Assembly: GCA_034509425.1 (NCBI GenBank)
Contig: JAVTVJ010000048.1
Coordinates: forward strand, 1,349,945-1,413,944
DNA: 64,000 nt
Reading direction: 5' to 3'
DNA from: Eopsaltria australis
Taxonomy: Eukaryota; Chordata; Aves; Passeriformes; Petroicidae
Shown here one piece after another: positions 8,651 to 64,000 of the stretch. Under the pieces are notes generated by a model. That model was not told where the DNA came from and ran no database searches. It saw only the letters and a list, made by a program, of their open reading frames with translations. The stretch's first letter is position 1. Each line of letters begins with the position of its first letter. The position numbers and the translations under genes are program-made.

Positions 8651-9680
8651 ATCCCGGAATTATGAGGTCAATTATTTATCAAATTATCCAGGTGAGTTCC
8701 CACCCTCAAGGAGCTCAGCTGAGGCTGCAGCTGCTCCTCGCTATTCCCGACTTTTATCCAGCCAGGCTTTGCACTTCCCTTTGGAAGAGACAGAGAATTC
8801 CCCACGAATCCTTGGGAAAGACTGACCCCTTCTGGGAATCCAACCCACAGCTGCTCAGGGAATCTGGGAACGGCTTTTGTGCCCTGGAATTTCCCCAGGA
8901 GTTTTAGGCAGCAAACCCTCGGCATTGGCCGGGAAAATTTTCCAAGGAATTCTCCGGAATTTCCTAAGGATGTTTTTTCCTGTTGGCTTCCACCAGTTAA
9001 TTTTACATTCCCCCTCACATTCCTGGATTTTTAAGTTCAGTGATGTTCCCTCAAATGATCCAGTTCTGCATCATCCTCCAGCTTCTCCTTCCTGCTTCTT
9101 CCCTAATATTCCAACCTTTTCCTGGTGTTATTTAGGATAATCCCACACATCCCATGGGATTTTCTCCTGTTCCTGTTCCAGGACAGATCTGGGATAGAGC
9201 AGGGGGATGCTGTGGGGTTTGTGTGGGGTCAGGTCCTTGGCCACACCAAGGACCGGGAATTGTCCTTTTGGGCCACTTTGGGGTCATTCCCATGGATCAG
9301 GAATTCCCATGGAGCGGGATTTGGACTTTATTTCCAGCTCCTGAATTATTGGGCAGATACTCAGGGAGATTAAAATCCATCGGTGAATTCCTGCCTTGAA
9401 AGTTGCCTCAATTTGCAGGATAAAGGAATAAATTTTTATTCCATGCTTCTCCCTCTCTGGCTCCCTCCGGAATTGTTTTTCTTCCTGCAAAGCTCGAGGC
9501 TTTTTCTCCCGGAGTTTTAATCCTCTTTCATAAAGTTTTGGATGTTTTCACATTCCGGGAGTTGCACCAATATTTCCTCCTTGGAGAACGAGCCACGCTT
9601 TCCCTCTTTGGACCCCGCCAGTGCCAACATCGGGATTTTTTCACACCGAGAAAGCAGCCAGGATTTGGGATTTGGAGAAA
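8651..9680. other. Intergenic, no gene recognised
   Basis: Unique sequence with scattered ggaattcc-type words. No exon, array or mobile element recognised. Confidence 0.5.
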
Positions 9681-9684
9681 GGAG

Positions 9685-10005
9685 CATCAGGTCCTGCAGG
9701 AGAGCTGGAGAGGGACTGGGGACAAGGCATGGAGGGACAGGACACAGGGAATGGCTTCAAAGTGAAAGAGGGAATGTTTAGATGGGATATTGGGAAGGAA
9801 TTCCTGGCTGGGAGGGTGGTGATGGATTGGGATGGAATTCCCAGATTTGCTGTGGCTGCCCCTGGATCCCTGGTGGTGTCCAAGGACAGGCTGGATGGGG
9901 CTTGGAGCAGCCTGGGATGGTGGAAGGTGTCCCTGACTATGGAATGGAATTCGCATTGGATGAGCTTTGAATTCCCCTCCAACCCAACCCGTTCCATGAT
10001 TCCCT
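9685..10005 (+). mobile_element. CR1 LINE 3'-end fragment (sense)
   Basis: Has gagctggagagggactgggg, aaggaattcctggctgggag, tgctgtggctgcccctggat, ending ccaacccaacccgttccatg. Confidence 0.78.
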
Positions 10006-11190
10006 GAGCAGATTAAAGCCCCCTCCGGCTGCCCCTGAATTAGAATCTGATTAAATCTCAAATATTGGTGATTTGGGACAGGATCAACTTTAACCACCCC
10101 CCCTTCACCAAGGGCTCCCTGAGGTATCCATGAGGAATTCTGAGGAAAGAACCGTCGTGCTGCCCGTACTCACCAAACGATGGATCCGAGGAGGAGCCGG
10201 ATCTTCCCCACCCTCGGCAAAAATTCAGGATGGCTGCAGGGATTTCAGCAAATCCTTCGTGCCAAGGAATGTTCCCGGACACTCCGCTCCAACTCAATCC
10301 CAATAAACTGTGAGAACAATCCGTGGCACCGCGTCCCTCCTGGTCAACAATCACCTCCACAAAGCATTCCTGGAAAATCTTTGGGAATCCTTTGCTCCAG
10401 CCTCCAGGGGAGTCAGCCTTGCGTACGAGCAAAGGAAACAATGGGCTTGATTGCGATGTACCAAATTAATTAAATTTAATTAAAGGGTGGGGCTTTCTGC
10501 CCGGGTCATTAATCTGATTAAAGCAGGCTGGAATTTTGGGAATAGGGGCCAGTGCAGGTGTGAGCGTGTGATGCCGACCTTGGAACAGGCACCGGCATGA
10601 GGAAAACATCCCCTTTCCTGTCAGGATATCGCTGCCAAACTTCTCTGGTCACGGCAGCTCCGAAAGCCAAACAGGGCCTGAAAACCACAACAAAAATGGA
10701 AAAATCCTGTGGGATAAAGGCAAAAATCTAAAGGAAGGGATGTGGGGAATCATGAACAATGGAAGGATTGAGGATGGATGGGATGGGAGATGATGGAGGG
10801 CAGTCAAATCCTGGGAAAACGGATTGGCCATTCCTGGTTTCAGTGGAAGAACCAGAGAGGCTCAGATCAAATCAGCAATTGGAGTATCCAGCACAAATTC
10901 CTTGCCAGAGAATCCACGGACGCCTGAAACCAGCAGGATTCCAAAAGCAGATGGATCCACAGCTCTCCCACCTCTGGACATGGATTATTTGGGAGAAGAG
11001 CAATGGGCACCTGTCCCATTCCTGTTCCATTCCTGTTCCCTTCCTGTTTCCAGGAAGCAGCAGGGAGGGAAGGAGGGACTTTGGGCTGGTCCAGTGTGGC
11101 CAGACATGGATTTGGGGAGAGAAATCCATGCCAGGGACTGACCTGGGAAACGAAATTCTGGTCACTCATCCTGGGGGCTCCCCACTCCTC
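10006..11190. other. Intergenic; candidate conserved non-coding island at 10300-10520
   Basis: Unique, with a local run of AACAAT sites (10315, 10346, 10437) and homeodomain-type caaattaattaaatttaatt near 10461. No coding exon recognised. Confidence 0.4.
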
Positions 11191-12854: not shown

Positions 12855-13320
12855 ATCAGGTGAGGCCTCACCTGCAGAGCTGCCCCAGCCCTGGATCCAG
12901 CATGGGAAGGACCTGGAGCTGCTGGAGAGATCCAGAGGAGGCTCCAGGATGATCCCAGAGATGGAGCAGCTCTGCTGGGAGGAAAGGCTGGGAGAGCTGG
13001 GAATGTTCCCCTGGAGAGGAGAAGCTTTGGGGTGAGCTCAGTGTGGCCTTGCAGGAGCTGGGGAAGCTGCAGGAAAGAAGGAGAGAGGGATTTCCAAGGG
13101 ATGGAGGGACAGGACACAGGGAATGGCTTCCACTGCCAGAGGACAGGGATGGATGGGATATTGGGAATTAGGAATTCCTGGCTGGGAGGGTGGGGAGAGG
13201 CTGGGATGGAATTCCCAGATTTGCTGTGGCTGCCCCTGGATCCCTGGCAGTGCCCAAGGCCAGGCTGGACGAGGCTTGGATCACCCTGGGACAGTGGGAG
13301 GTGTCCCAGTACGGATTTTC
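12855..13320 (+). mobile_element. CR1 LINE 3'-end fragment (sense), one of the longest here
   Basis: Begins ggtgaggcctcacctgcaga, continues gagcagctctgctgggagga and ends in the CR1 tail tgggacagtgggaggtgtcc. Confidence 0.78.
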
Positions 13321-13859
13321 CCCTTCCCGACATCTCCAGCGGTTGCCAGTCGATATTTTCCCCGTGATCCTGGATTTTCCTCACCTTCAACTTTCCAAAT
13401 TCAAGCCAAAAGTCCAAACCTACCCTCTCCTCACCCTGGCTGCTCCTGGCCCTGATCCAGGGAGCTGCCACCTCCTCCTGATCCTTGAAATCCGAAGGAA
13501 AAGCATCCCTGAGGGCCGGATGAAGCCCTGGATCAATCACATCCCACACGGATAGCGAGGAGCGCTGATAAAGCCTTCAGAAAATCCAGATAAGCTCCCC
13601 TGGCTGCCCGGAGCTCATCCCCGAGCTCATCCCAGAGCTCACATTTTCCATCGGGAAAAGTGACAGAGGGAAGGAGCCACGTGGGAAAAACAAACAGGGC
13701 CTGGAGATAAGAGAAAGTGGGAGAACGGGAGATAAGGGAAGGATCAAACGCTCTTCCCTGCTCTTTGCTTCCTCTCCATTTCCTGCCCGGAGCAGCTCTG
13801 CCCTCCCCTCTGCGCTCCAGGTGACAAAGGAGCTGTTGTTCACGCCGGGAAAGCTTTTC
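13321..13859. other. Intergenic, no gene recognised
   Basis: Unique sequence. Three copies of gagctcatccc/agagctca-type words lie near 13610-13640. No exon seen. Confidence 0.5.
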
Positions 13860-21938: not shown

Positions 21939-22306
21939 TCACTTCTTCTTTGCTGGGGCTTTGGAATTCCCGCCGGCTTTTCCATTGGTTTTGGCGCCTC
22001 CGGATTTTCCAGCTTCTTCTTTTTCCCCCTTTTTCCCCCCTCCTTGTTTCGTGTCCTTTCCCTTTTCCCCCTTTTCCTTTTCCCCCTTTTCTCCTTTCCC
22101 TCCTTTCTCCTCTTTCCCTCCTTTTTCCCCTTTTTCTCCGTCTTTTTTTTTGCCTCCGTCCTTCCCGTCCTTGGATTCTTCCTTCTGCTCCTTCTCTCCC
22201 TCCTTTTTCTTGGAGCCTTTGGATCCATCCTTCTTTCCCTGAGCCTTGTCCACTTTCCCGGATACCGTGGGAACTTCTTCCTCTTTTTTCTCTTCCGTGA
22301 CCTGAG
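21939..22306 (-). CDS. TMIE: TMIE coding exon 4 (Lys/Glu/Gly-rich tail and stop)
   Basis: The acceptor is a T-run followed by CTTGGGAACAG. It joins in frame (G|CT) and encodes [15 protein letters not shown], then about 100 residues made almost only of K, E, G, D and S, ending NSKAPAKKK and TGA. The coding strand is nearly all purine. TMIE tails are lysine-rich in other vertebrates, but this one is roughly three times the usual length. The reading frame is open throughout, which supports it as real. The internal low-complexity part may vary in length or be misassembled. Confidence 0.82.
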
Positions 22307-25300: not shown

Positions 25301-28300
25301 ATGGAATTGGGTTCAGCTCCAGAGGGAATTCTGGGAATCCCCGATTTAGGGCCAGATACCCGGACACCCCGAAATCCCGGGATCTGTGCAAATTCCCATT
25401 GTTCAGCCTTTAATTCCGCGTTTTGCTGGTGTAGGACTGAATTTCTCCAAGGAATTCCAAAATTCCCACAGCGTTGGGATCTGCCTCTTCCAGCCCGGAT
25501 TGAAGCGGCGCATCCCGAACCGCGGAAACGCCGTTTTTAGGGAATTACAGCTCCCGGAGAGACGCAGGAAAAGAGGGAAAAGAACCATCAAAAAGGTGTG
25601 GAGGAAACAGGAGAAATCCGGGAATGGAGAAGCAGCAAATCCAAGGATCGGTGGATTCCCTCGGCAAAGAGAAGCCACAGGCGGCCGGGAATGAATCCCT
25701 AAATTCCTTGGAGAACCATCTCGTCCTCTTCCTTCAGGACAGGCAGGGAGTGGAGAGGTCGGGGCTGGACGTGGCCAGAGAGAGGGAGGAGATTGTCGGG
25801 AGAGCCTACGGAATCAGGAAAGGAGAGTGAGAGCAGCGGAGATCCCGACGGAAACATTCCAGCAGGAAAAACCGGGAATGGGGAATTCCGAGCGCTCCGT
25901 CGGAGCTCCTGGTATCCCCCCAAGCCAAGGGCGGGCCCTGAAATGCATCTGAATTCCCACTGGGAATTTGAAATATGGGATTTTCTTTCAGGAGGGTGAA
26001 GGTCGGATAATCGATGGGAAAATGGGATTGGAGCTCCAGTTGTCCCAGGAAAGGTTTGGATTGGATATTAGGGAAAAAATTCCAAACTGGAAGAGTGATT
26101 GAGGATTGGGAAATGCCGGAATCGCCACCCCTGGAGGGGTTTGAAAAACCAGGAGATGTGGAAATTCCCAGCGTTTTTTAGTGGGATTTGGCCCAGAACA
26201 GGAGTTGAGGATCTTTTCCAACCTTCATTTGGGAATGAAGGAATAATTCCAACGGAAAAATTCCCTCTTCTCCAAAGGATTTTATCCCAATATCTTCATC
26301 TGCTGCTCTCACTGGGAGGGCTCATCTTGAGGGTGGCACAATCCCAAAAAAAAGTGGGAATTACCTCCGGGAATGTTGCTGAGCTCGTGGAGGGATTTTG
26401 TCCTCCCAGAATCCCAGAAAAAAGTGGGAATTGCCTCCGGGAATGTCGGTGAGCTCGTGGAAGGACTTTGCATTCCCAGAATCCCAGAAAAAAGCAGGAA
26501 TTACCTCTGGGAATGTTGCTGAGCTCATGGAAGGATTTTGTCCTCCCAGAATCCCAGAAAAAAGTGGGAATTACCTCTGGGAATGTCGGTGAGCTCATTG
26601 AGGAGCTTTGCACTCCAAAAAAAAAGTGGGAATTACACAAAATGTTCCAGGAATGTCAGGGAGCTCATTGAGGGACTTAGTGCTCCCAGAATCCCCAAAA
26701 AAAGTGGGAATTACCTCTGGGAATGTCGGTGAGCTCGTTGAGGGATTTTGCACTCCCAGAAACCCAGAAAAAAGCTGGAATTATCTCCAGGAATGTCAGT
26801 GAGCTCGTTGAGGGACTCTGCTTTCCCAGAATCTCAAAAAAAGTGGGAATTACCCTTTGGGAATGTCAGTGAGCTCGTTGAGGAACTTTGCACTCCAAAA
26901 AAAAGTGGGAATTACCTTTGGGAATGTCGGTGAGCTCATGGAGGGACTTTACTCTCCCAGAATCCCAGAAAAAAAGCGGGAATTACCTCCAGGAATGTCA
27001 GTGAGTTCATAGAGGGATTTTGTGCTCCCAGAATCCCAGAAAAAAGCGGGAATTACCTCCAGGTATGTCAGTGAGCTCATGGAGGGACTTTGCCCTCCCA
27101 GAATCCCCCAAAAAAGTGGGAATCATCTCTGGGAATGTTGCTGAGCTCATTGAGGGACTCTGCTTTCCCAGAAACCCAGAAAAAAAGTGGGAATTACCTC
27201 CGGGAACATCAATGAGCTCGCTGAGGAACTTTGCAGTCCAAAAAAAAATGGGAATTACCTCCGGGAATGTCAGTGAGCTCGTTGAGGGATTTTGCCCTCC
27301 CAGAATCCCAGAAAAAAGCGGGAATTACCTCCGGGAATGTCGGTGAGCTCGTTGAGGGACTCTGCTTTCCCAGAATCTCAAAAAATGTGGGAATGACCCT
27401 TTGGGAATGTCAGTGAGCTCGTGGAGGGACTTTGTACTCTCAGAATCCCCAAAAAAAGCGGGAATTACCTCCGGGAATGTCGGTGAGCTCGTTGAGGGAT
27501 TTTGCCCTCCCAGAATCCCAGAAAAAAGCGGGAATTACCTCCGGGAATGTCGGTGAGCTCGTTGAGGGATTTTGCGCTCCCAGAATCCCAGGAAAAAGCG
27601 GGAATTACCTCCGGGAATGTCGGTGAGCTCGTTGAGGGGCGGCACGGTGTCCAGTTTGTCGGCGTAGTTCTTGGCCGCCTTGCGCTGCGCGTAGCGAGCC
27701 TCGATCTCCTTCTTGGTGCGAGGGATCCGGCACTTGAAGATGCAGCACAGCGTGATAACTGGGAATGGGAATGGGAAACAAACTGGGAATGGGAGTGGGA
27801 AACCGGGAATGGGAATGGGAAACTGGGAATTCTGGGGGAGCTACTGGGAATGGGAATGGGAAACTGGGAATGGGAGTGGGAAACTGGGAATGGGAATGGG
27901 AAACTGGGAATGGGAATGGGAAACTGGGAATTCTGGGGGAGCTACTGGGAATGGGAAACTGGGAATGGGAATGGGAAACTGGGAATTCTGGGGGAGTTAC
28001 TGGGAATGGGAATGGGAAACCGGGAATGGGAATGGGAAACTGGGAATTCTGGGGGAGTTACTGGGAATGGGAAACTGGGAATGGGAATGGGAAACAGGGA
28101 ATTCTGGTGATCACTGGGAATGGGAAACTGGGAATTCTGGGGAGTTACTGGTAATGGGAATGGCAAACTGGGAATTCTGGTGATCACTGGGAATGGGAAT
28201 GAGAAACTGGGAATTCTGGGTGAGTTACTGGGAATGGGAATGGGAAACTGGGAATTCTGGTGATCACTGGGAATGAGAATGAGAAACTGGGAATTCTGGG

Positions 28301-30583
28301 TGAGTTACTGGGAATGGGAATGGGAAACTGGGAATTCTGGGTGAGTTACTGGGAATGGGAGTGGGAAACAGGGAATTCTGGGTGAGTTACAGGGAATGGG
28401 AAACAGGGAATTATGGTGATAACTAGGAATGGGAAACTGGGAATTCTGGTGATCACTGGGACTGGGAAACTGGGAATTCTAGGTTATGATTGAGAATGGG
28501 ATTTCTGGTGAGTTACTGGGAGTGGGAAACTGGGAATTCTGGGTGAGTTACTGGGAATGGGAAACTGGGAATTCTAGGTGATCACTGGGAATGGGAGTGG
28601 GAAAACAGGGAATTCTGGGTGAGTTATGGGAAATGGGAGTAGGAAACAGGGAATTCTGGAGAGTTACTGGAAATGCGAAACATGGAATTCTAGGAGATAA
28701 TTGGAAATGGGAAACAGGGAATTCTGGGTGAGTTATTGGGAATGGGAAACACGGAATTCTAGGTGATAACTGGGAATGGGAATTCTGATGAGTTACTGGG
28801 AATGGGAAAAGGAATTCTGGTGAGTTACCGGGAATGGGAGTGGAAAACTGGGAATTTGGGGGAGTTACTGGGAATGGGAAACTGGGAATTCTGGGTGAGT
28901 TATTGGGAATGGGAAACACAGAATTCTAGGAGATAACTGGGAATGAGAAACAAGGAATTCCGGGGAGTTATTTGGAATGGGAGTGGGAAATGGAATTCTG
29001 GGTGAGTTACTGGGAATGGGAAACAGGGAAATCTAGGAGATAACTGGGAATGGGAAACGGAATTCTGGTGAGTTATTTGGAATGGGAATGGAAAACAGGG
29101 AATTCTGCTGAGTTACTGGGAATGGGAGAAGGAAATGAGGTATTCTGGTGAGTTATTGGGAATGGGAAACACGGAATTCTAGGAGATAACTGGGAATGGG
29201 AAATGGAGTTCTGGTGAGTTATTGGAAATGGGAAACGAAATTCTGGGTGAGTTATTGGGAATGGGAAACAGGGAATTCTAGGTGATGACTGAGAATGGGA
29301 ATTCTGGTGAGTTACTGGGAATGGAAAACATGGGATTCTAGGAGATAACTGGGAATGGGAAGCAGGGAATTCTGATGATCACTGGGAATGGAAAACATGG
29401 AATTCTAGGTGATAACTGAGAATGGGAATTCTGGTGAATTACTGGGAATGGGAGTGGGAAACAAGGGAATTCTTGATGGGTTATTGGGAATGGGAAACAT
29501 GGAATTCTAGGAGATAATTGGGAATGGGAAACAGGGAATTCTGGGTAAGTTATTGGGAATGGGAAACAGGGAATTCTGGGTGAGTTACTGGGAATGGCAA
29601 AGGGAAACAAGGAATTGGGTTGGACACTGGGAATGGGAGAGGGAAATGAGGGAATCTGGGTGAGTTATTGGGAACAGAGAGAGGGAAACAAGGAATTGTG
29701 GGGGAGTTACTGGGAATGGGAGAGGGAAACAAGGATGTAACTGGGAATGGAGAGGGAAACGAGGATCTGGCTGGGAATGGGAGAGGGAAATGGGGGAATC
29801 GGGGTGGGCTCCTGGGAATGGAGAGGGAAAGGAGGATTTGCTCCCTGGGAATGAGGGAAGCTCTGGCTGCCCCCGGATCCCCGGCAGTATCCCAGGAAAG
29901 GGATGAGGATCCAATCCCAGAGTGGAAATGAAGGAAAAACGGATGGATCTGACAGGGAATTGTTTCCCAAGGGATCCCGAGGAATTTGGCTCCAGGTGCT
30001 GCAGGAGAAATGGAAAAACCCCCCGGATTTCAGGGATGAAACCAAAACTTTCCTGGTTTTTCATTCCCAAAACTCCCTTTCTGTCGGGATTCAATTGTTT
30101 TTCCCGGGAAGAACGGAGAGAGAAGAGAAGAGAATTCGGGATTTGGATTTTCCACTAATTTTTTTTATGGGATGGTGCCACCTTGTGGGATGTGCTTGGA
30201 ATCCTCATTTGGATTGGATTTATGGATTTATTTCAGTTCTATTTATTAATAATAATAATAATAATAATAATTATTATTATTATTATTGTTATTATTATTA
30301 TTATTATTATTATTTATATAGCATATAAGCATATCACTATATAAATATATTTTTATTAATTATTTGTAATAATTTCTAATAATACAAAATATTTATAAAT
30401 TATTGTTTAATTAATGAATTAATACTCACAATAATATAAATCATCATTCTATTTATGAACAAATAATTTTTAAAGCCTAATTGCTGTATTTGTATTTTAT
30501 TTTAATTTTAATATTTCTTTCCATTTTTTAATTTTACTACTTTATAATTCCCTGAATTCTATTTATTTCTAATAGTAATAGTA

Positions 30584-34100: not shown

Positions 34101-37100
34101 TCCTTTATCCGTTTATTCTGGAATTTCTGGAATCAGGAGTTGGATTTGGATGATTTCTATGGATCCCTTTCCCCTTGGAATATTCTGAGCCAATTTTCCT
34201 GGATTTTTCCTCTTGTTCTGAACGATTCCAGGTTTAAAATCCTTGGGGTTTAAAATCCCTGCTAAAACCAAACAGAAAATCTTGGAATCCCAAATATTCC
34301 AGTGGAGGAGCCCCAAAAATTCCTTCTGGAAGATGTGGAATGAAATGGTCTTGAAGGTCCACTCCAACCCAGAGCATTCCAGGATTTCCCAAACCCAGAG
34401 CATTCCAGGATTTCCCAAACCCAGAGCATTCCATGGTTCCCAACCCAGAGCATTCCATTATTCCAGAACATTCCAGGATTTCCCCAACCCGGAGCATTCC
34501 AGGATTTCCCCACCCAGAGCATTCCAGGATTCCCAACCCCGAGCATTCCATTATTCCAAATCATTCCAGGATTTCCCCAACCCAGAGCATTCCATGATTC
34601 CAAAACATTCCATGGTTCCCAACCCAGAGCATTCCATGATTCCAGAGCATTCCAGGATTCCCAGCCCAGAGCATTCCAGGATTTCCCGAACCCCGAGCAT
34701 TCCATGATTCCAAAGCATTCCAGGATTCCCCAGCCCAGAGCATTCCAGAATTCCCAAACCCAGAGCATTCCATGATTCCAAAACATTCCATGGTTCCCAA
34801 CCCAGAGAATTCCAGGATTCCCAACCTGAAGCATTCCAGGATTCCCCAGCCCAGAGCATTCCATGGCTCCCAACCCAGAGCATTCCAGAATTCCCAGCCT
34901 GGAGCATTCCAGAATTCCCAAACCCAAAGCATTCCATGGTTCCCAACCTGAAGCATTCCATGAATCCCAGCCCAGAGCATTCCAGGATTCCCCGCCCAGA
35001 GCATTCCATGATTCCAAAACATTCCAGAATTCCCAACCCAGAGCATTCCAGGATTCCAGAGCATTCCAGAATTCCCAACCCAGAGCATTCCAGGATTCCA
35101 GAGCATTCCAGGATTCCCTGAACCCAGAGCATTCCAGGATTCCCAGCCCAAAGCATTCCATGGCTCCCAACCCAGAGCATTCCAGGATTCCCTGCCAGGC
35201 TCCACCATGGATTTGGGCGGGAATGCAGCGCTGGATCCCATTCCCATCCCTGGAACCTCTCTGGGTCATCCCCAGGCGATTCCCAAGCCGAATCCACGGT
35301 GATTCCCACTGGGAAATCCCTCCTCGCGCGTTCTGGGGAATTCCAAAGAGTTTTTCCCGAGGAAATCCCGCTGGGAATGGGGCAGGATGGAATCCCGGGA
35401 CTCACTGATGGACAGGACGAAGAGGGCGAAGATCCCGACCACCTGCCAGAGCCGGAGCCCCCAGATCACCACGGTCTCCGACGTCACCGGATCCGGCTTT
35501 TTCTTGGGAGGCGCCGTGGTGGCCTGGGAAAAACGCAGGGGAAAAACGGCGGGAAAAGGTGGGTTAGGAACGGGAAATTCCCTGAAATCCTCGTGGAAGC
35601 GATGGGAGCACGGGAAATGCTGGAGTGGTTGGTGAGGACTCGATAGTTTGGGAATATCGGAGGGAATGTTCGGGGCAGGAGGATTTGGGAATTGGGCGCT
35701 GTCGGGGAAGGTTCTGCCTCGCTTTTCCGCTTGGGAAAGGTTGGACAGCTCGGAAAACCTGGAATTATTCCCGGAGAAGCAACCTGGGCTGGGAAAGGAT
35801 TCCGGGATCCATCGCGGGGGATTTATGGGATGGGATGGGATGGGATGGGATGGGATGGGATGGGATGGGGGAAAATCCGGGATTCATTGGAGTGGGGGTG
35901 GAGGTGAACTGGGAATTCCCGGTTTTTGGGGATGAGCTGAGAAATTCCACAGGGTCTGGAAAGCAGGGAAAGGTGGGTTAGGATTGCAGAATTCCCTAAA
36001 ATACTCCGGGAGGTGCTGAGAGCTGGAGGGGTTGGTGACTCCTCGATAATTTGGGAATATTGGAGGGATTTTTAAGGAATGGGAGCAGGAGCGATCCAGG
36101 AAAATCTCCTTTTTCCAGCCATTCCTTCACTCACCCCAAAATTCCCTTCTCCGCTTTTCCAATCGATTGTAAGGAGCAAATCAGGGCCAAGAATGAGAAA
36201 AGAACAGGAAAAAATTCCAGGAATATTTCCATGGAAAATATCCATGGCTGGATCATGGCCTTGCTGGAGTGGGAAAGGATTGGAGGTGGGGTTTGTTCCC
36301 AAAGTTCCTCCAAATAAATTCCGTTTGTTTTTTGGGATGTGGAAATCCAGGATTGAAAGGAAACCTTTTCCTTGCTCCTAAACTCCCAGAACTCCTTGCT
36401 CGGAATGGGGAGGAAACGTCTTGGATTTGATTTTTCTGGCTGGAAAAGGGAAAGAGCCCAATGGGAAAAAAATCTTGGAATGGTTTGGGATGGAAGGGAA
36501 CTTCAGCACGATCCCATTCCATGGGCAGGGACACCTCCCACAATCCCAGAGTGCTCCAACCTTTCCTTGGACATTCCAGGGATCCAGGGGCAGCCACAGC
36601 AAATCTGGGAATTCCAGCCCAGCCAGGAATTCCTAATTCCCAATCTCCCAACCATCCCTGCCCTCTGGCACTGGGATCCATTCCCTGTTTTCCTGTCCCT
36701 CCATCCCTTAAAAAAAATGGATGGAAAACTCCTCATTCCCAAAAAAGTCCCTCCTAAAAAAGTCCCCGGGATTCCCTGGAGCCGCTCGGATCCGGCTGCA
36801 ACGGATATTCCGGAGTGAATCCCAGCGGAATTCCCCGCTCTCCGATTCCTCACTAATCCAATTGGAGCCTTTTCTGCTTCCTGTTGTGTCTGGAATTCCC
36901 TGAATCCCGAGGGAATCCCATCCTGGATCCAGCAGAATTCCTGGCTCTCCAAACTCCCGGAATTTGGGGCATCCCCCTTTTCCCATCCCACAGGGAATTG
37001 CTGCTGAGGGAGGAGGAAAATCAGAGAGGAGTTGTGGGATCTTGGAGAGGAATCCGGGATGGATAAAAAGGGAGGAAACTCTGGGATGGGACACGGAAAA

Positions 37101-40100: not shown

Positions 40101-41973
40101 TCAAGCGGGGATTTAGGAGCTCATCCCGGGATTCAGGGATTTCCAACCCATCCCGGGGTTCTCTGATTCTCTTCCCAAATTTTGGGAGAACTTCCAGCCC
40201 AGGGAATTTTTCCATGGGAGCGAGCCAAGATTTCCTCAATCCAATCCAAGATTTTGAGGGATTTTTGCCTCTTCTCTCCCGAATTTTTCCTTCCTTTTTT
40301 CCCTTTATTTTTCCTTATTTTCGGGGGGGGTTTTTTTGGGAATTTTCCCAGCTCCCGGAATGATTTTTCCTCTCCGGCTTTTTTTTCCTCCTCTGTTTGC
40401 TCCAGCCTGGCTGAGCTGGAATTGAATTATTCGGGATAACTCCATTATCCAATTATTTCCAGGAATCGGCTCCTCGGTGGGGCCTTGGCTTTTCCAGGAA
40501 AAAAAAACTGGGATAAACAAAGCAGATCCCAAATTTCTCCCTGGCTGATCCCGGTTTTTGGGGCTTTGATGTTTTGTTTTGGTTTTCTGGGATAAAATAA
40601 ATGGAATTTTTCCCGGCTGGATCATCCCTGGGATTCAGGGCAGGAGGATTTGGGAATTCTGCGCTGTCAGGGAAGGTTCTGCCTCGCTTCTCCCCTTGGG
40701 AAAGGTTGGACAGCTCGGAAAACCTGGAATTATTCCTGGAGAAGCAACCTGGGCTGGGAAAGGAATCCGGGATCCATCGCTGGGGATTTATGGAATGTTC
40801 AGGTAGGATAGGATGGGATGGGGGAAAATCCGGGATTCATTGGGAATGAGCTGGGAGTGGGGGTGGAGGTGAACTGGGAATTCCCGGATTTTGGGGATGA
40901 GCTGAGAAATTCCACAGGGTCTGGAAAGCAGGGAAAGGGCAGGGATTGAAATCCTAGGAAAAAGGGAAAGGCAGGGATGAGCGGCCGGAAATCCCGGGAA
41001 AAAATACGGAAAGGGAAATCCTGGGAAAAAACCTGGGAAAGGGCAGGGATGAGAAGCTGGAAATCCTAGAAATCCTGGGAATAAAATATGGAAAAGGGAC
41101 GAATGGCCGGAAATCCTGGAAAGAAAAAAAAACCTGGAAAGGGAAGAGATGAGAGGCTGGAAATCCAGGGAAAAAATACAGAAAAGGAAATCCTGGGAAA
41201 AACCTGGAAGGGCAGGGATGAGAGGCCAGAAACCCTGGAAAAACATCAGGGAAAGGGCAGGGATGAGAGACTGGAAATCCTGGAAAATTCCTGAATTTTC
41301 GAATCCCAGAAATCCCAGCCAAATCCCGCTCCCGAAATCTCAAGCGAGAGCAACGACTCCAGCAGGGAAAAGGATCCAGAGGGGGAAAAGTGAAAGTTTT
41401 TGGGAGCTGGGAATTTTTTTCCAGGCAGGATTTTCCCTCTGGAATTGCTGGGGGGATCGGAGCCGCCCTTTCCCTCCGGGATCATTCCCGGTTTTTCCAC
41501 AGGGAGTGGGAATGCAGAGTCATCCTGAGGAGGGGGAGAAATTCCCTCGGAATTCCAGGTTTCCCCAGGATTTCAGGGAATGAGGAGAAGGAAAACCCAT
41601 CCCAAAGATTTCCCTTGGGAATATCACCAGGGCCAGGATTTTTGGGATCGCTCCCGCTCCTTTTCCCCCCTGATCCTCAAACTGTTGGAAAACCGGGAAA
41701 AAGCCGCGATCCCAACCCTAAATCCTCATTCAGGCCCTTCGGGAAGCACCAAAAATTCCCAAAAAAAACCCCCTTGGAACTCCTTGGATCCACCTTAAAT
41801 TCCCGCTTGTTTGTTTTCCAGGGCAAACCCCCATTCCCGGCCCGCAATTCCCACTTTTCCAGCGGGATTTTTCCAGCGGGATTTTCCCTTACCTCGATCA
41901 GCTGCGCCAGGGAGAGCCTGGAGCGGGCCAGGACGAGGCAGGAAATTCCCAGAGAATTCCAGGCTGGATCCAT
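21939..41973 (-). CDS. TMIE: TMIE, transmembrane inner ear expressed protein (4 coding exons, complete)
   Basis: Coding exons read on the minus strand: 41973-41893, 35523-35406, 27758-27609, 22306-21939 (81+118+150+368 nt, 238 codons plus TGA). All introns are GT-AG and the phases match. The core (residues about 43-116) closely matches vertebrate [21 protein letters not shown], the basic [14 protein letters not shown] segment and VPPLNELT. Residues R76, R79 and R87 occupy the positions of human R81, R84 and R92, which are mutated in DFNB6 deafness. Known family role: a membrane subunit of the hair-cell mechanotransduction complex with TMC1/2 and LHFPL5, at stereocilia tips. The N-terminus is only weakly signal-peptide-like. 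The tail is Lys/Glu/Gly-rich and much longer than in human (238 versus about 156 residues in total). The introns are packed with minisatellites. The gene lies head to head with ALS2CL, as in mammals. Identification is very secure; the exact tail end and start are somewhat less so. Confidence 0.93.
22480..22625 (+). mobile_element. CR1 3'-end fragment in TMIE intron 3 (antisense to gene)
   Basis: catccctggaagtgtccaag, gccaggctggagcaccctgg and tggaatgggatgatcctgaa are the CR1 tail. Confidence 0.68.
22900..23145 (+). mobile_element. CR1 3'-end fragment in TMIE intron 3 (antisense to gene)
   Basis: gatgggatattgggaaggaa, aagttgtggctgtccctgga, gggatgatccctaaggtctc, ending attccatgattcc. Confidence 0.72.
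23690..24360. repeat. Tandem array, ~150-185-bp unit, about 4 copies (TMIE intron 3)
   Basis: Repeats of ggaggcatctccggaggga, cagcacggagatggatccca and aagtttcccacatttcccac. Spacing is about 186, 149 and 151. Confidence 0.9.
24361..26339. other. TMIE intron 3, unique part
   Basis: No array or exon recognised. A short (~20-bp) repeat of aggattaagtggaagacaa type is at 25228-25290. A GC-richer patch lies at about 25480-25930, with some CpGs. Confidence 0.5.
26357..27640 (-). repeat. ~70-bp array of TMIE exon 3 end plus 5' splice site, 18 intronic copies
   Basis: On the minus strand each unit contains the exon-3 end (CTCAACGAGCTCACCGACAT, then TCCCGGAG), the donor GGTAATTCC and ~30 bases of intron start. 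Units begin at 26357, 26427, 26497, 26567, 26628, 26706, 26776, 26845, 26907, 26978, 27048, 27118, 27189, 27250, 27320, 27389, 27460 and 27530; the real junction is the nineteenth (27600). At least 13 intronic copies keep GGTAATTCC or the aligned GT. Copies next to the exon are the most alike. Confidence 0.95.
27609..27758 (-). CDS. TMIE: TMIE coding exon 3 (membrane-proximal cytoplasmic region)
   Basis: Acceptor CCCATTCCCAG, 150 nt, donor GGAG|GTAATT. It encodes ITLCC, the basic [14 protein letters not shown] motif, [26 protein letters not shown]. In the family this amphipathic basic stretch lies next to the membrane and is reported to bind phosphoinositides. Both splice sites are embedded in tandem arrays that repeat the splice-site sequence (see findings). 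Confidence 0.95.
27754..29850 (-). repeat. 2.1-kb array of TMIE exon 3 acceptor-like units (intron 2)
   Basis: Units of gggaatgggaaactgggaat plus tctgggtgagttact. On the TMIE strand these read TTCCCATTCCCAG, the same as the real exon 3 acceptor. Several units read CCCAGTTATC(ACC), that is acceptor plus first exon bases (for example near 28760, 29038, 29187 and 29345). Confidence 0.93.
30245..31440. repeat. AT-rich block, ~290-bp unit x4, each led by (AAT)n (TMIE intron 2)
   Basis: Each unit has an (AAT)n run, then acatataaacatatcactat, ctaataatacaaaatattta, catcattctatttatgaaca and gcctaattgctgtatttgta. The internal landmark recurs near 30441, 30748, 31025 and 31311. Confidence 0.92.
31441..31925. 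other. AT-rich low-complexity, TMIE intron 2
   Basis: Runs of TTATT/AATTA. Nothing else recognised. Confidence 0.7.
31930..32640. repeat. Tandem array, ~150-bp unit, about 5 copies (TMIE intron 2)
   Basis: Recurring ggaattcccaattccatccc, acctgaaaggaatccaggac, gggatcaccccagggaagga and ggaaagcaattccaggtggg. Confidence 0.92.
33275..33695. repeat. 16-bp minisatellite, ~26 copies in ordered variant blocks
   Basis: Exact 16-base period of cccggctctggaattg and variants: about 5 cccggct, 4 cccgggt, 10 cctgggt, 4 tctggct and 2 cctgggtt units in succession. Confidence 0.97.
33696..34080. repeat. Degenerate repeat of gggatttnngcctgag/tttgggaattta
   Basis: Imperfect ~25-40-bp repetition continuing from the 16-bp array (tttagggattttgcc, gagtttgggaatttag). 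Confidence 0.65.
34335..35210. repeat. Minisatellite of cccagagcattccaggatt, ~40 copies, following a CR1 tail
   Basis: Begins in aaatggtcttgaaggtccac and tccaaccc, the CR1 3' end, then ~19-24-bp units of cccagagcattccaggattc with atgattcc/tggttccc variants up to exon 2's flank. Confidence 0.92.
35406..35523 (-). CDS. TMIE: TMIE coding exon 2 (transmembrane segment)
   Basis: The acceptor TTTTTCCCAG precedes 39 codons plus one base, followed by a GTGAGT donor. It encodes [10 protein letters not shown], the conserved [18 protein letters not shown] block and most of the membrane helix (about residues 52-73, completed by exon 3). This is one of the best-conserved parts of the family. Confidence 0.95.
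35665..35970. repeat. Dispersed duplication copy A in TMIE intron 1 (partner at 40630)
   Basis: caggaggatttgggaatt, ggttctgcctcgcttttccg, ggacagctcggaaaacctgg and tccacagggtctggaaagca, shared with 40630-40940 at high identity. It contains an internal (GGGAT)n run. Confidence 0.95.
35824..35872. repeat. (GGGAT)n microsatellite
   Basis: About eight tandem tgggatgggat units inside duplication copy A. Copy B has only two or three. Confidence 0.95.
36476..36715 (-). mobile_element. CR1 LINE 3'-end fragment in TMIE intron 1
   Basis: ggaatggtttgggatggaag, ccatgggcagggacacctcc, gatccaggggcagccacagc: reversed CR1 tail, same strand as TMIE. Confidence 0.75.
36716..37109. other. TMIE intron 1, unique part
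   Basis: No exon or repeat recognised. Confidence 0.5.
37110..38690. repeat. 1.6-kb T/G-rich minisatellite (ggctccaggattttt), TMIE intron 1
   Basis: About 45-50 copies of tttgggctccaggatttttt with ccggg, tctggg and ggaattt variants. The TMIE transcript would read AAATCCTGGAGCCC repeatedly. Confidence 0.95.
38691..40629. other. TMIE intron 1, unique part
   Basis: No array or exon recognised. A T-rich tract lies at about 40260-40400. Confidence 0.5.
40630..40940. repeat. Dispersed duplication copy B in TMIE intron 1 (partner at 35665)
   Basis: Same ~300-bp unit as copy A, same orientation, about 5 kb away, with small substitutions and a shortened GGGAT run. Confidence 0.95.
40941..41292. repeat. 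Tandem repeat, ~40-55-bp unit, TMIE intron 1
   Basis: ggcagggatgagaggctgga, aatcctgggaaaaacctgg repeated about 7 times. Confidence 0.85.
41293..41892. other. TMIE intron 1, donor-proximal unique part
   Basis: No repeat or exon seen. It ends at the exon 1 donor. Confidence 0.5.
41893..41973 (-). CDS. TMIE: TMIE coding exon 1 (start codon, N-terminus)
   Basis: The ATG is at 41973-41971, followed by 27 codons ending LAQLIE, then a GTAAGG donor (phase 0). The end aligns with the human exon 1 end (QLVE). The hydrophobic stretch [10 protein letters not shown] is interrupted by RSR, so the signal peptide is weaker than in mammals. The start is chosen because it is the ATG in frame with the conserved end; an alternative upstream start cannot be excluded. 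Confidence 0.8.
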
Positions 41974-53100: not shown

Positions 53101-56100
53101 GAATTCCCTAAAATCCAACATGGACCTTCCCAGGCCCAAATATTCCCTAAAATCCAATCTGGACCTCCCTTAGTCCAAGATGGACACATGGATAAATATT
53201 CCCTAAAATCCAGCTGAAGTGCCAGGAAGAAATATTCCCTAAAATCCAACCTGGACTTCCTTTTGCTAAATATTCCCTAAAACCCAAGCTGGGTCCAAAC
53301 CCAGGCCCAAACCTGGAGCGTTGCTCAAGCTTTTCCATCTTTTCCCAGGGATCGGAGAAGGACGTGGTGGCCACCGTTATCCAGGAATTTGAGAAGCTGG
53401 AATCCTTCATCAGCCAGGTGCTGGATGAGGCCTGCGCCACCAAGGAGCTCTGGAAATCCCTGGGATACAAATTCACCGTGAGTCGGAGGGAATCGGGGTA
53501 CGGATCGGGAATTGGGGATGTGGATCAGAAATTTGGGGCTGGAATTCAACGGAGCAGAGCTGGACGGAAGAGCAGGAGAAAATCCCTGGGAATTTCAAAG
53601 CTGAGTTTGGGTCCCAAGTGTGGCAGTGGCACTTTGATCCCGAGTCAGAGGGAATTTGATCTGGATCGGGAATTTGAGACTGGAATTCAACAGAGCAGAG
53701 CCGGGTAGAAAAGTTGGAGAAACTCCCTGGGGCTTTCAAAACGGAGTTTGTATCGCTTGAATCCCAAGGCAGGGGGAATTTGAGGCTGGATTGGGAATTT
53801 GATATGGATCAGGAATTTGATTCGGATTGGGAATGTGATATGGATCAAGGATTTGAGGCTGGAATTCAACAGAGCAGAGCTGGGTGGAAGAGTGGGAGAA
53901 ACTCCCTGGGAGTTTCCATGTTTTGTGTCCCCAGTGTGTCCCTGTCACTTTAACCCTGAGTCACAGGGAATTTGATCTGGATTGGGAATTTGAGGTTGGA
54001 TTGGGAATTTGATCCGGATTGGGAATTTGAGGCTGGGAGTAACAAAGCAGAGCTGGGTGGAAGAGCTGGAAAAACTTGGTTTAAAGCTGAGTTTTGTGTC
54101 ACCTGAACCCCGAGGCAGCCGATCCCTGCAGGAATTCCTGCCTGGAATCCTCTGCCAATCCCGTTTTTTCTGGGATGCTCCCTCCCGTGCAGGATGTGCT
54201 GTGTGTTCCCGAGAGGAGGCTCCTGGAGGACAGCAGGAACCTTCCCATCGCCTCCGGCACCGCCCGCTCCGAGCGCATCCTGCTCTTCGACGACGTCCTG
54301 GTGCTCATCCAGGTCAGTCCGGGATCCTCCACAGGGACTGGGAAGGGAGCGCGGATAAACGGCACTAAAATCCCAGTGGAATGGCAGGAATGACAGGAAT
54401 TTCCAAAGGAATGGTGGGAAAAACTCCAGAGTTTGGCTGTTGGGAAAAGCTGGGAAAACTTTGACTTAAAGATCCCACCCCATTCCATGGACAGAGGCAC
54501 CTCCCATCATCCCAGGTTGCTCCAAGCCCCATCCAGCTTTTCCTTGGACACTTGCAGGGATGGGGCAGCCCCAGGTGTCTGGGAATGTTGGCTGGAATGA
54601 TTTGGGAATGCTCTGGAGACCAGGATCACCTGGGAATGTTTTACTGCTGGATGTGACCATGGAATTACGGAGGAGTTTTAGGAATGTTAAAACAAAAACT
54701 TCCCTACTTTTCCCGGGATTTTTCCCTCTCCAAGGTCTCCCATCCCAACTTTTTGGTCCATCCATCCCACATTGGGAATTTGTGCCGCCGTTCCAGCTCT
54801 GCCATTCCATGGATGCTTCCAGCAATAACAGGACCTCCTTTTCCCATTTTTTCCAGGGAAACAGCTTCCAGAGTTTTGATCTGAAGCTGGTGTGGGTGGA
54901 TGAAAACTGCGGCGAGAAATCGGCTCCAGGATCGTGAGTGAGAAATTCCCACCGGGAATTAAAAAGAAATGGAATAAAAATGTTCAGGTTGATGGGAAGA
55001 TGATCCAAAGCTTTGTCCCATCTCCTTTCCAAGCACTGGGATTTGTTTGGGATACGGATAAGGGGGTCTCAGCAGCTTGGAATTTGCTGCAAGATTAAAA
55101 TCCTGGAATTTTGGAGGTTGGAAAAGCCCTCTGGGATCGTCAAATCCAACCTGTGCCCCGTCCCCACCTTGTCCCAGCCCAGAATTCCTTGGACACTTCC
55201 AGGGATGGGGACTCCAAACCTTCCTGGGCAATTCCAATGCCTGACCACGTTTTCCATGAGGAAATTCCTGCTGATGTCCAACCTGAGCCTCCCTTGGCCC
55301 AGCTCGAGGCCGTTCCCTCTCATCCTGTTTGTCGCCAATCAATCCCAAAATTATTTCATCCAGCCCTAGAGAACTTGGGATCCCTCCAGAAAATCCACCT
55401 GAAAAAGCAGCAGGAGCTCCAGGAGGGGAGTGGGAAGAGCAGGAATCGCTGATGGATTGGGAATTGTGTTTTCCATCCTGTTTTTTCCCTCCCAGGTACA
55501 GCCTGCGCATCACAACCCCGGAGGAGGCCTTCGTCCTCTCCGCCAAGGACCCCCAGATGAAGGTCAGGCCTTGGGATTCTCCCATCTCTTCATTATTAAA
55601 ACAGGAAAATAATCCAGGGAGGGTTTGGATTGGGATTTTTGGCTCCTTTTCCAAGATAATCCTGGATGAGGTGGCCAGAGGTAGCTCAGAGTTGATGGTG
55701 GGAACCCATCGGTTTCTCGCGGCTTTTCCTGATGTTTCTCTTTTTCCAATCAACTTGAAACTTCCATTTCTTTTTTTATTATCCAAGTGGAATTTTTTCC
55801 TGTTTTTTTTTTTAACATCCAAGTGGAAATTCCTCCCTCCCAGCTCTTGTACCTTGGTGCAGCACCCACCTTCCAGGACAATCCTCTGGAAGCTGCGGAT
55901 GATGGGAACCCATTGGTTCCTCGCTGCTTTCCCAAAGTTTCTCTGGCTGATTTTCCCGGGCTCTGCGCTGATTCCCTGTCCGTGTTTCCCGCCCCAGGCC
56001 GTGTGGCAGTGGAAGCTGGAGCAGGCCGTGCGCCAGGCGCTCAACGGGAAGCGCGATTTCCCGCTCTGGGGCCGCAGCGGGGAGGGCAGCGAGGCCCCGG

Positions 56101-59100
56101 CCCGGCGCTTCTTCACCTACGTGTTCCGCATGGAGGGACGGCTCCGCGGGGCCACCTACGAGGGCGAGTGGCACTGGGGGAAGCCCCACGGCAAGTAAGG
56201 AACCTCTCGGGTCCCTTTTTTCCATGTGGGAATAAGGTTGGAAGTGCTGGGTTGGCTTTTCTGTGAAGGTTGGGAATGATTGCCAGGGTCAAGCCAAACA
56301 TCTCCAAGGTCAACCCAAACAACCCCATCATGAAAGGGCTGCTCCTTTTCTCAGCCCTGCGAGGGCGAGTGGCTCTGGGGGAATTGGGCCCCTTTTCCAA
56401 GTGGGAATAAGGTTGGAAGTGGTGGCTTGACATTCCCATGAAACTTGGGAAAGATCTCCAGGGTCAACCCAAACAACCCCATCATGAAGGGGCTGCTCCT
56501 TTTCCGGGCCCTACAAGGGCGAGTGGCCCTGGGGGAAGCTCCATGGCAAGTAAGGAACCTTTCGGGTCCCTTTTTTCCATTTGGGAATAAGGTTGGAAGT
56601 GCTGGGTTGGTTTTTCCGTGAAGGTTGGGAATGATTGCCAGGGTCAAGCCAAACATCTCCAAGGTCAACCCAAACAACCCCATCATGAAGGGGCTGCTCC
56701 TTTTCCGGACCCTACAAGGACGAGTGGCTCTGGGGGAAGCCCCGTGGCAAGTAAGGAACTTTCTGGGCCCCTGTTCCATGTGGGAATGATGTTGGAAGTG
56801 CTGGGTTGACATTGCCATGAAGGTTGGGAAACATCCCCAAGGTCAACCCAAACTCATCCCCAAGGTCAACCCAAACAACCCCATCATGAAGGGGCTGCTC
56901 CTTTTCCGGGCCCTACAAGGACGAGTGGCCCTGGGGGAAGCTCCATGGCAAGTAAGGAACCTTTCGGGTCCCTTTGTTCCATGTGGGAATAAGGTTGGAA
57001 GTGCTGGGTTGGCTTTTCCGTGAAGGTTGGGAATGATTGCCAGGGTCAACCCAAACAACCCCATCATGAAGGGGCTGCTCCTTTTCTGGGCCCTGCGAGG
57101 GCGAGTGGCTCTGGGGGAATTGGGCCCCTTTTCCAAGTGGGAATGGTGTTGGAAGTGGTGGCTTGACATTCCCATGAAACTTGGGAAAGATCTTCCAGAT
57201 CAACCCGAACATCTCCAGATCATTCTTGAGGGGTCTCCTCCTTTTTTAGGCGCTTCCAGGGTGGGGATAAAGTCAGAATTGGATTATTAATGAGGTTGTG
57301 GACATGAATCCAGGGATTCCTGCCTCACTCATTCCCAGAGGGAATTCCGGCCTTGAGCGCAGGCTTAGCAAAGCCTGAGTCCTAAACTTGGGATGGATTG
57401 TGGATGTCTCACCCGTGGTTTATGGATTAAATCCTAAAGGAATGTGGTGTTGATCACCCCGAAGGTGCCTCTAATCAGGATTTAGGCTTGGCCTAAAATC
57501 AAGATCTCAGCCTGGGATATGAAATTCTCACCCTCAGGATGAGGGAAATCCCCATAAAAACCCTTTGCTGTGAAAAATTTGATTCTCTGCTATCAAAATC
57601 TCCTTGAACTTAATCCAAACTTGGAACATCCAAACTTTTATCCCAGGAATTAAATCCAAATGGATCTCAAATGGGAACGTGGGAACTGTTCCCATGGGAA
57701 ATCCAAGTTTAAGAGAGGGAATGTCTGCAAATTAAAGGTTCCCAACCAAAATTCCTGATTTGGGATAGAGGACAACTCTGGGGGTTTTTTGGGAAGAAGC
57801 CTGGAATATGACTTGAGTTCTTCAGCCACCAAAACATCGGGAAATTGGATTTTCCATGAGTTTTCCACAATTTGCTCTGGAAGCAAAAAGGATGGAGAAG
57901 CTCGGTTTGGGAGAGCCTTAAAACAATGAAAGGATCCAGGATAGAAATGGCTTGGAAGGGGTTTGAATCCAGTTCCAACCCCAAATCCAAACGGAATCCT
58001 GAATATTCCATGGAAAAGATTGTGCCGTGCCCTGGGAGGGAATTAAAGGAGCGTTTAGGGCGGGGGACCTTTGGATCATCCCCACCTTCACTCCCTCCAA
58101 ACCATCTCCTGGCATTTGTCCTCTCCTGCCTTAGGGCTGGAAAACTGGGATTAATCCCAACCTCTCCCATTCCACATGGAGTGACTTGGGTGAGGCATCC
58201 CAGGAAATCCGTGGCAGAATTAAGGGATTCGGGTGTTCAATTCCTTGGATTTGAGTTCCCTTCCCACTCCTGGAATTCCCCTGCCGTGATTTTGTTCCAG
58301 AGCAGCGTCCTGGCCTCGGTGGCTGCTCCGGGATGTCCGAGGGAGGAGCACGGGAGCAGAGCTGTGGGAGGGGGAATTTGGGCTCTTTGGCAAAAACATC
58401 GGAGTTCTCCTGTCTGTCCTGGAATTCCGGGTGACCTGGGGTGGGGAAGGACAGACTCCCACTCAGACGTGGCTCACAAGTCCTCGTGCCTGCAGCAGAC
58501 GTGGAATTACGGAATATCCGGAGTGGGAAGGGCTCCCAGGGATCAAATCCAACTCCTGGCCTGGCACAGACACCCCCAACAGTCCCAGCCTGCCCAAACT
58601 CCTGGAGCAGCCTTGGGAATGCGCACATTCCCATTCCCTGGGGAATGTTCAGAGCCCGACACCCTCTGGAGAAAGGACCTTTTCCTAAAACCCAACCTAA
58701 ACCTGGCCCAGCTCCGGCTGTTCCCTCACCCCCTTGAGCTGCTCCCCTGTTCCCTCCCACAAAGCCAAAGGAGATAATGAAAATATTTGAATTCCAAACA
58801 CATCCGACCGATCCTCCGGAAAACTTGGAAAAGAGCCCATCTCGTGGGGGTGTTTGGAACAACAGCCTCGGTGAAAGTCAAACAACCCCGTCACGGTTTT
58901 GGTCTTGCACCATCTCCTGGCAAACCGACCCGAGGAGGTTTGGATTAAATATTGGGATGGAATTCCTGGCTGGGAGGGTGAGGAGAAACTGGGATGGAAT
59001 TCCCAGAGCAGCTGTGGCTGCCCCTGGATCCCTGGAAGTGTCCCCCTGGAAGGGGCTTGGAGCAGCCTGGGATAGTGGGAGGTCCCTGCCCATGGGATGA

Positions 59101-63399: not shown

Positions 63400-64000
63400 A
63401 TTTGGGGGTTTTTGGGTGAGCTTTTTGGGGCTTTTTTGAGGGTTTGTTTTGCTTTTATTGGGTGTTATTGGACTTTTTTGATTGAGTTTTTGTGGGGTTT
63501 TTTAGGGTTTTTATTGGGTTTTATGGGACATTTAGGGTTTTTTTTTTCCTTTTTTTATTGGGTTTCACGGGACATTTTTTTGGCAGAGTTTTTGGGTCTT
63601 GGGGTTTTTTTTGTTGGGTTTTTATTGGGTTTTATGGGACATTTTTGGTTGAGTTTCTGGGTTTTTTTTTCCTCTTTCTTGGGGTTTTTATTGGGTTTTA
63701 GAGGACTTTTTTTGGCTGAGTTTTTGGGTTTTTTGTGGGGTTTTTGGGTTTTCTGGGGCATTTTTGGCTTAGTTTTTGGGATTTTTTTTTCTCTTTTTTG
63801 GGGTTTTTATTGGGTTTTGCAGGACATTTTTGGTTGTGTTTTTGGGATTTTTGGGTTTCATTTGTTGGTTTTTATGGGGCATTTTTGGTTGAGTTTTTGG
63901 GGTTTTTCTTTCTCGTTTTGGGGGTTTTCATTGGGTTTTACAGGACATTTTTGGTTCTGTTTTTGGGGTTTTTTTGTTGGGTTTTTATTGGGTTTCGCAT
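63400..64000. repeat. T/G-rich repeat at right edge (ALS2CL intron 14)
   Basis: Degenerate ~80-100-bp units of tttttattgggttttatggg, acatttttggttgagttttt. Continues past the window edge. Confidence 0.88.

Follow-up and report, generated by a model that had tools for sequence, protein, structure and literature searches.

Intron 3 of TMIE in Eopsaltria australis contains, immediately downstream of exon 3 and on the same strand, 18 extra copies of the exon 3/intron 3 junction. These copies very probably form an exon-stuttering array, that is, a local tandem expansion of a block of about 70 bp straddling the junction, which is most likely neutral and tolerated by splicing. The window analysed here is a 64-kb stretch of DNA with a GC content of 47.5%, the final part of a 1.41-Mb contig (assembly of 1.17 Gb in 5919 contigs), and the coordinates of its main features are collected in Table 1.

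Table 1. Features of the TMIE and ALS2CL genes and their arrays in the 64-kb window
Feature	Position	Strand	Basis and remarks
TMIE exon 1, coding part	41893..41973	-	tblastn; donor GAG|GTAAGG
TMIE exon 2	35406..35523	-	tblastn, splice sites
Intron 2 minisatellite of TMIE	27759..29790	-	TRF; reaches the exon 3 acceptor; acceptor-like CCCATTCCCAG repeated
TMIE exon 3	27609..27758	-	150 nt; both ends in phase 1; the array derives from it
Array region in TMIE intron 3	26335..27608	-	intron half of u01 plus u02-u19; TRF, unit alignment
Extra donors scoring at least as high as the true one	26365..27539	-	donor matrix; U1 duplex energies
TMIE alternative last exon 4a (...QGI; ...KEEDEM...)	25699..25805	-	tblastn, Agelaius tricolor TMIE, 94%
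TMIE alternative last exon 4b (AQVTEEKK..., lysine-rich)	21939..22306	-	tblastn, Oenanthe and Nestor TMIE
ALS2CL exon h (ends ...GEWHWGKPHGK)	55998..56194	+	tblastn, splice sites; source of the second array
ALS2CL array	56454..57056	+	units of about 201 bp; TRF, boundary scan, published screen, alignment

TMIE exon 3 was placed by tblastn to bird TMIE proteins and by its splice sites (TTCCCAG|TT and GGAG|GTAATT), and its 50-aa peptide matched the Pfam family TMIE (PF16038) with an E value of 6.2e-20. The TMIE exons of the window matched bird TMIE proteins, with songbirds giving the best database matches. Both alternative last exons, 4a and 4b, were compatible with the phase of the exon 3 end. 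The TMIE proteins of other birds carried a C-terminus of either the 4a or the 4b type, one each, and the Xenopus laevis protein (P0241) had a 4a-like end; judging from these protein ends, the two C-termini may be old in vertebrates. The neighbouring gene ALS2CL was found on the plus strand with 13 exons placed, ten via tblastn with a primate protein and three (d, f and g) by eye from open frames. Similar open frames (...GMEGQDTGNGF...) recurred on both strands, for example at 9534-10007 (+), 12864-13367 (+) and 60683-61420 (-), and probably represent an interspersed repeat.

TRF detected a single array at 26340-27638 in TMIE intron 3, with a period of 70, 18.8 copies and 80% matches. The unit of about 70 nt comprises the last 28-30 bases of exon 3, followed by the donor and some 40 bases of intron that include a T-run. 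Splitting of the minus strand gave 19 units, namely u01, the exon's own end (27636-27567), and u02-u19, the 18 extra copies (27566-26335), each holding the exon 3 end, a donor or donor remnant, and intron bases. The unit alignment thus bore out the earlier note on this DNA, made from the letters alone, both in the 18 extra copies and in a repeat unit built from the exon 3/intron 3 junction. Unit sizes were 61-71 nt, and u19 was cut at 58 nt, the far end of the array being chosen by hand. When the exon's last 28 bases were searched in the window with up to six mismatches, 19 matches appeared on the minus strand and none on the plus strand; no match arose in any of 20 minus-strand shuffles. The search of the whole Eopsaltria australis assembly returned 17 matches, corresponding to the query's own place and 16 sites in the array; these are lower bounds, and no copy elsewhere in the genome was listed by this search, which skips very common words. 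A 30-mer of the exon end and donor had no match in the viral contigs scanned. The units were imperfect, with a mean pairwise identity of 83% (gap columns excluded). The sole identical pair was u02 and u05, both 97% like u01, and u03 was 90% like u01. No G4 motif was present on either strand of the array, so that G4 as a cause is unsupported here.

Arrays of this kind have been described in chicken as exon stuttering, or sequence stuttering (Genome Biol Evol, February 2026; PMC12954441), in which a piece of a coding exon and its donor or acceptor recur as imperfect tandem copies within the neighbouring intron. According to that paper, the exon parts in chicken range over 20-187 bp, the copies over 1-44 and the spans over 112-23,555 bp, more than 90% of the sources lie within 1 base of the exon border, and length variation between individuals is a main feature. 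By the same account, dot chromosomes carry 190 of the 236 cases, a strong preference and not a requirement, with 36 of the 236 introns on macrochromosomes; the introns involved are highly repetitive, the medians being 7-93% on dot chromosomes and near zero on other chromosomes. The TMIE array agrees with this description in its exon part of 28-30 nt, its 18 copies and its span of about 1.3 kb, and differs in that the host is a songbird, the locus probably macrochromosomal and the GC content 47.5%. The suggestion that an exon-junction minisatellite of this kind was undescribed stood for TMIE itself, for which none was found in the literature searched, and fell for the kind, which PMC12954441 had reported for chicken. 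Neither TMIE nor ALS2CL is named in the main text of PMC12954441, whose gene list sits in its supplement. That paper was the only one with the term exon stuttering or sequence stuttering in the literature searched, and the literature on minisatellites and splice donors, intron gain and competing donors held nothing closer. PMC3045353 reports a repeat of 150 bp located 5' in an intron, and its passages on this repeat mention no exon part. The TMIE array also resembles a known intron-creating tandem duplication in that the duplicated block crosses an exon-intron boundary and supplies splice signals; there, however, one duplication made a new intron, whereas the 18 TMIE copies lie inside an existing one, and the array gave no sign of a new exon.

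The published screen compares each exon with the introns of its own gene by blastn-short without dust, requiring a length of at least 20, a score of at least 42.1 bits and a result above that of a shuffled control. Run here on the plus strand only and without the paper's further filters, it was passed by two of the 16 mapped introns, TMIE intron 3-4a with nine matches (maximum 60.0 bits) and ALS2CL intron h-i with two (maximum 48.1 bits); two of the nine and one of the two had exactly 42.1 bits. Shuffled introns yielded no match of 20 nt or more. Six of the nine TMIE matches reached base 150 of the 150-base exon and the other three reached base 146, so the copied exon part extends to the exon border with its splice site, as in exon stuttering. 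Highly repetitive introns, another mark of exon stuttering, were found as well, tandem repeats making up 70% of both intron 3-4a and intron 2-3.

The second array, in ALS2CL, is independent of that of TMIE, lies about 29 kb from it and includes three units with the exon h end and the donor GGCAA|GTAAGG, the last bases before the copied donors being 56549, 56750 and 56951. In transcripts modelled from exons h and i alone, translation stopped at the TAA of the true donor whichever of these copied donors was used, at least 351 nt before the junction. A scan of 36 edges of the 18 mapped exons detected exon-end copies within 5 kb at two donors only, those of TMIE exon 3 (n=18) and ALS2CL exon h (n=3). 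Two acceptor edges, of TMIE exon 2 (35523) and ALS2CL exon m (63125), had one match each with at least 18 exon bases, more than 5 kb off.

Arrays without exon parts fill much of the window as well. Tandem repeats of all kinds, merged into 55 arrays, occupied 31.7% of its length, and their share of the 16 mapped introns had a median of 16.5%, reaching 90% in ALS2CL intron c-d and 0% in four introns. Within 27759-29850, exact CCCATTCCCAG occurred 30 times, the true exon 3 acceptor among them, and none of the 25 blastn matches to the exon 3 acceptor boundary had 18 or more exon bases. Exon 3 thus stands between an array of acceptor-like sites in intron 2 and an array of donors in intron 3. With overlapping starts counted, the plus strand of the window had 126 G4-type motifs, compared with 17 for the minus strand. 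Another tandem array extended over 63453-63995, with the contig end five bases beyond, suggesting that the assembly breaks at arrays of this sort.

Donor quality was compared among the copies of TMIE exon 3. GT stood at or near the expected position in 15 of the 18 extra copies, and AG/AGG|GTAATTCC was kept in 13, the number that had been put forward as a minimum for copies with a donor. Scored with a donor matrix, 12 of the 18 equalled or exceeded the true donor (GAG|GTAATT, score 3.52), and the identical 11-mer was found in 11; the u11 donor scored above the true one, and u12 has GTAATTCC intact next to a weaker left side. The last bases before these 12 donors were 27539, 27469, 27329, 27259, 27198, 27057, 26987, 26916, 26715, 26575, 26505 and 26365. 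The splicing machinery would therefore face many equal donors within 1.3 kb, as the earlier note had argued. The U1 duplex energies at the 12 extra sites (-6.6 to -6.7 kcal/mol) accompanied a value of -6.7 kcal/mol for the true donor. The donors of u04 and u15 were poor, and u08, u13 and u18 were without GT. When 15 donors across the window were scored (ALS2CL donor d left out), the true TMIE exon 3 donor came ninth.

Modelling of the transcripts showed that use of the u02 donor adds 70 nt and shifts the frame, as had been foreseen, with no stop within the joined coding part of 4a or 4b. The companion proposal that every third copy would restore the frame failed, because the TAA at the u02 donor stays in frame whenever a donor from u03 onward is used; of the 14 such donors modelled, none gave an in-frame product. 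In these transcripts the distance from the stop to the last junction was 66 to 1170 nt. Premature stops located over about 50-55 nt ahead of that junction yield NMD-type transcripts. The modelled transcripts from u03 onward conform to this stop-position rule, and the corresponding mRNAs look NMD-bound, whereas the u02 transcript reads through instead.

These properties raise the alternative of regulated unproductive splicing, in which the copied donors would act as decoys producing TMIE NMD transcripts and thereby set expression. Such a role would agree with the scores of the 12 donors, with a stop at least 66 nt before the last junction for all modelled donors from u03 on, and with the probable second unit in canary described below, which suggests age. 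Speaking against it, GT was lost in three copies, u04 and u15 are poor, the GT is gone in the sole readable canary copy, and arrays without exon parts occupy much of the window. Conservation of the units was the further point on which this alternative could be judged. The counts of changed non-CpG cells relative to u01 (23/396 in the exon part, 5/144 in the donor and 77/507 in the intron part) indicated better conservation of the exon and donor parts than of the intron part, which counts against a neutral array. However, the tree-based count (19 units, one NJ tree) gave 21 parsimony changes in 22 exon columns, 5 in 8 donor columns and 30 in 30 intron columns outside CpG, and constraint on exon and donor columns relative to intron columns was not detected (p 0.38). 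The tree-based count thus gave no support to the selection on donor copies that the raw counts had hinted at, and the selective conservation expected of decoys was not detected; we regard this alternative as very unlikely. Third codon positions were not more variable than the others (non-CpG cells changed at positions 1, 2 and 3: 11/108, 8/162 and 3/108), giving no sign of coding constraint.

The pattern of divergence among the units bears on how the array arose. Identity to u01 was not correlated with distance for the 18 copies (Spearman -0.06, p 0.83), nor was that of the exon part alone (Spearman -0.32, p 0.19), and a position gradient away from the exon was rejected. The idea that the array had grown from the junction was consequently retained for its origin there, with the exon part unchanged in u02, u03 and u05, and given up for the gradient of divergence. 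Units u04 and u12 were 96% alike, and u06, u11 and u15 had a shortened intron part in common. Such a mosaic is easier to explain by unequal exchange or conversion than by stepwise extension from a single end.

Two further roles for the copied sites were weighed. Dual-specific or recursive splicing, with the AG|GT of each unit serving as acceptor and donor and the intron removed in steps of about 70 nt, has a model in the UBC polyubiquitin gene, a tandem repeat with AGGT at the unit borders whose sites are used for dual-specific splicing, such sites tending to be weak (PMC10809524). The TMIE array is likewise tandem, and the AG|GT core is found in 13 of the 19 units, the exon's own included. 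In contrast to UBC, where the units are coding and use of the sites is reported, the TMIE units are intronic and offer a poor acceptor context: G precedes AG in 12 of the 16 units with GT, as against G at -3 in none of the 17 mapped acceptors, and the pyrimidine fraction was 0.69 (six units), compared with at least 0.75 in 14 of the 17 mapped acceptors. On this ground recursive or dual-specific splicing was set aside as extremely improbable. The array might instead be functional in some other manner, for example by binding U1 within the intron and so suppressing early polyadenylation or shifting the choice between 4a and 4b. The position of the array between exon 3 and the two alternative last exons would suit this, as would the resemblance of the U1 duplex energies of the kept donors to that of the true donor; with constraint undetected and large arrays without exon copies in other introns of the window, such a function has hardly any likelihood in our estimate.

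Other birds were examined through their TMIE proteins. The protein searches gave 389 and 311 matches, from which the best 120 of each were considered and 40 sequences inspected. Fetched proteins that included the exon 3 end and whose tail had at least 20 residues were compared with the translated array, and the best 14 were examined. The canary model (P0060) continues past the exon 3 donor, and its tail scored 117 against the translated array, compared with at most 46 in 30 shuffles, aligning with two successive units. The part after the first unit had a best local score of 60; the maximum over 1000 shuffles was 42, and the remainder of the window gave 39. The canary codons were compatible with 86 of the 96 bases of u07-u08, as opposed to no more than 60 at any of 19466 places sampled outside the array, and the in-frame match implied a unit spacing near 70 nt. 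In the second unit a Leu codon takes the place of GTA, so that this donor has been lost in canary. Canary is thus likely to carry two or more units at the same junction, as read from a protein model and not from DNA. A clear second unit was seen only in canary among the best 14 tails. The Junco tail (P0072) scored 62 against 42 in shuffles without a clear second unit, and the other 12 were within 6 of the shuffle maximum or lower (Parus, 39 against 35). The Catharus model (P0054), aligned without a shuffle test, matched the first unit only and ends there. Repeat expansions in some other birds, for which independent expansion is inferred, are mentioned in PMC12954441; in canary, by comparison, the second unit has the same period.

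The probable second unit in canary, together with the second array of the same kind in ALS2CL, supports the exon-stuttering reading. Both also bear on whether the copies could have been produced by the assembler or by read errors. The window does lie at the end of a 1.41-Mb contig that terminates beside a tandem array. The imperfection of the units, with a single identical pair among 19, nevertheless argues against simple assembly duplication. Their differences are CpG-like mutations, with 33 changes in 10 CpG columns versus 56 in 60 other columns. With a different array in ALS2CL and a canary unit at the same place, an artefact is very unlikely.

The chromosomal setting was approached through other genomes and samples of the contig. 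Among the matches listed, TMIE was on contigs of 138-173 Mb in 13 other birds (for example Oenanthe, 148.4 Mb; Parus, 150.3 Mb; Prinia, 153.9 Mb; Athene, 169.9 Mb) and on contigs of 50-116 Mb in six (for example Lagopus, 50.0 Mb; Falco, 115.6 Mb); in the remaining listed birds it was on short scaffolds or had no stated contig. The chicken PTH1R gene, linked to TMIE, is on chromosome 2 (PMC3483286). The contig was sampled at several points: the samples from 0, 0.3 and 0.6 Mb had 35-38% GC and less than 1% tandem repeat, and that at 0.9 Mb had 50% GC and 1.4% tandem repeat. The tandem-repeat content was 30% at 1.2 Mb, about 1% at 1.3 Mb, and 12-51% in 10-kb blocks in or beside the window. Taken together, the contigs of other birds, chicken PTH1R and the contig samples indicate that the locus is probably on a macrochromosome.

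The exon-stuttering array may have arisen as follows. It probably began with a duplication that joined short stretches of similar sequence, CCCTCAACG in the exon and a CCCTCCATG-like sequence in the intron, and copy number would then have been altered by replication slippage or by unequal exchange and conversion. Under exon definition, the first donor gives the shortest exon with the true acceptor. Splicing probably still takes place at this donor, because it yields the shortest exon and because the u02 donor shifts the frame and those from u03 onward bring in an NMD-type stop. If a later donor were used now and then, this would be tolerated noise, and the array itself is most likely without function.

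Exon stuttering as a kind is already known from 2026 (PMC12954441). New are a songbird case with nucleotide detail, its occurrence in two neighbouring genes, a probable macrochromosomal location and a probable second unit in canary. The moderate GC content and the lack of a G4 motif in the array suggest that neither extreme GC nor G4 is needed. A fuller account, which we offer tentatively and think rather doubtful as a whole, would be that of exon stuttering reaching beyond chicken dot chromosomes to a repeat-rich stretch of a songbird macrochromosome and affecting both TMIE and ALS2CL, the TMIE array being long shared with canary, so that songbird hair cells must choose the first of a dozen equal donors and perhaps let a regulated share of transcripts enter NMD. 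TMIE is needed for hearing. A function of its array is unlikely, and the array offers a natural experiment on how donors are chosen, with 12 additional donors scoring at least as high as the true one within 1.3 kb. It carries exon stuttering beyond chicken, into a songbird and probably onto a macrochromosome, and the canary match provides a route to dating such arrays.
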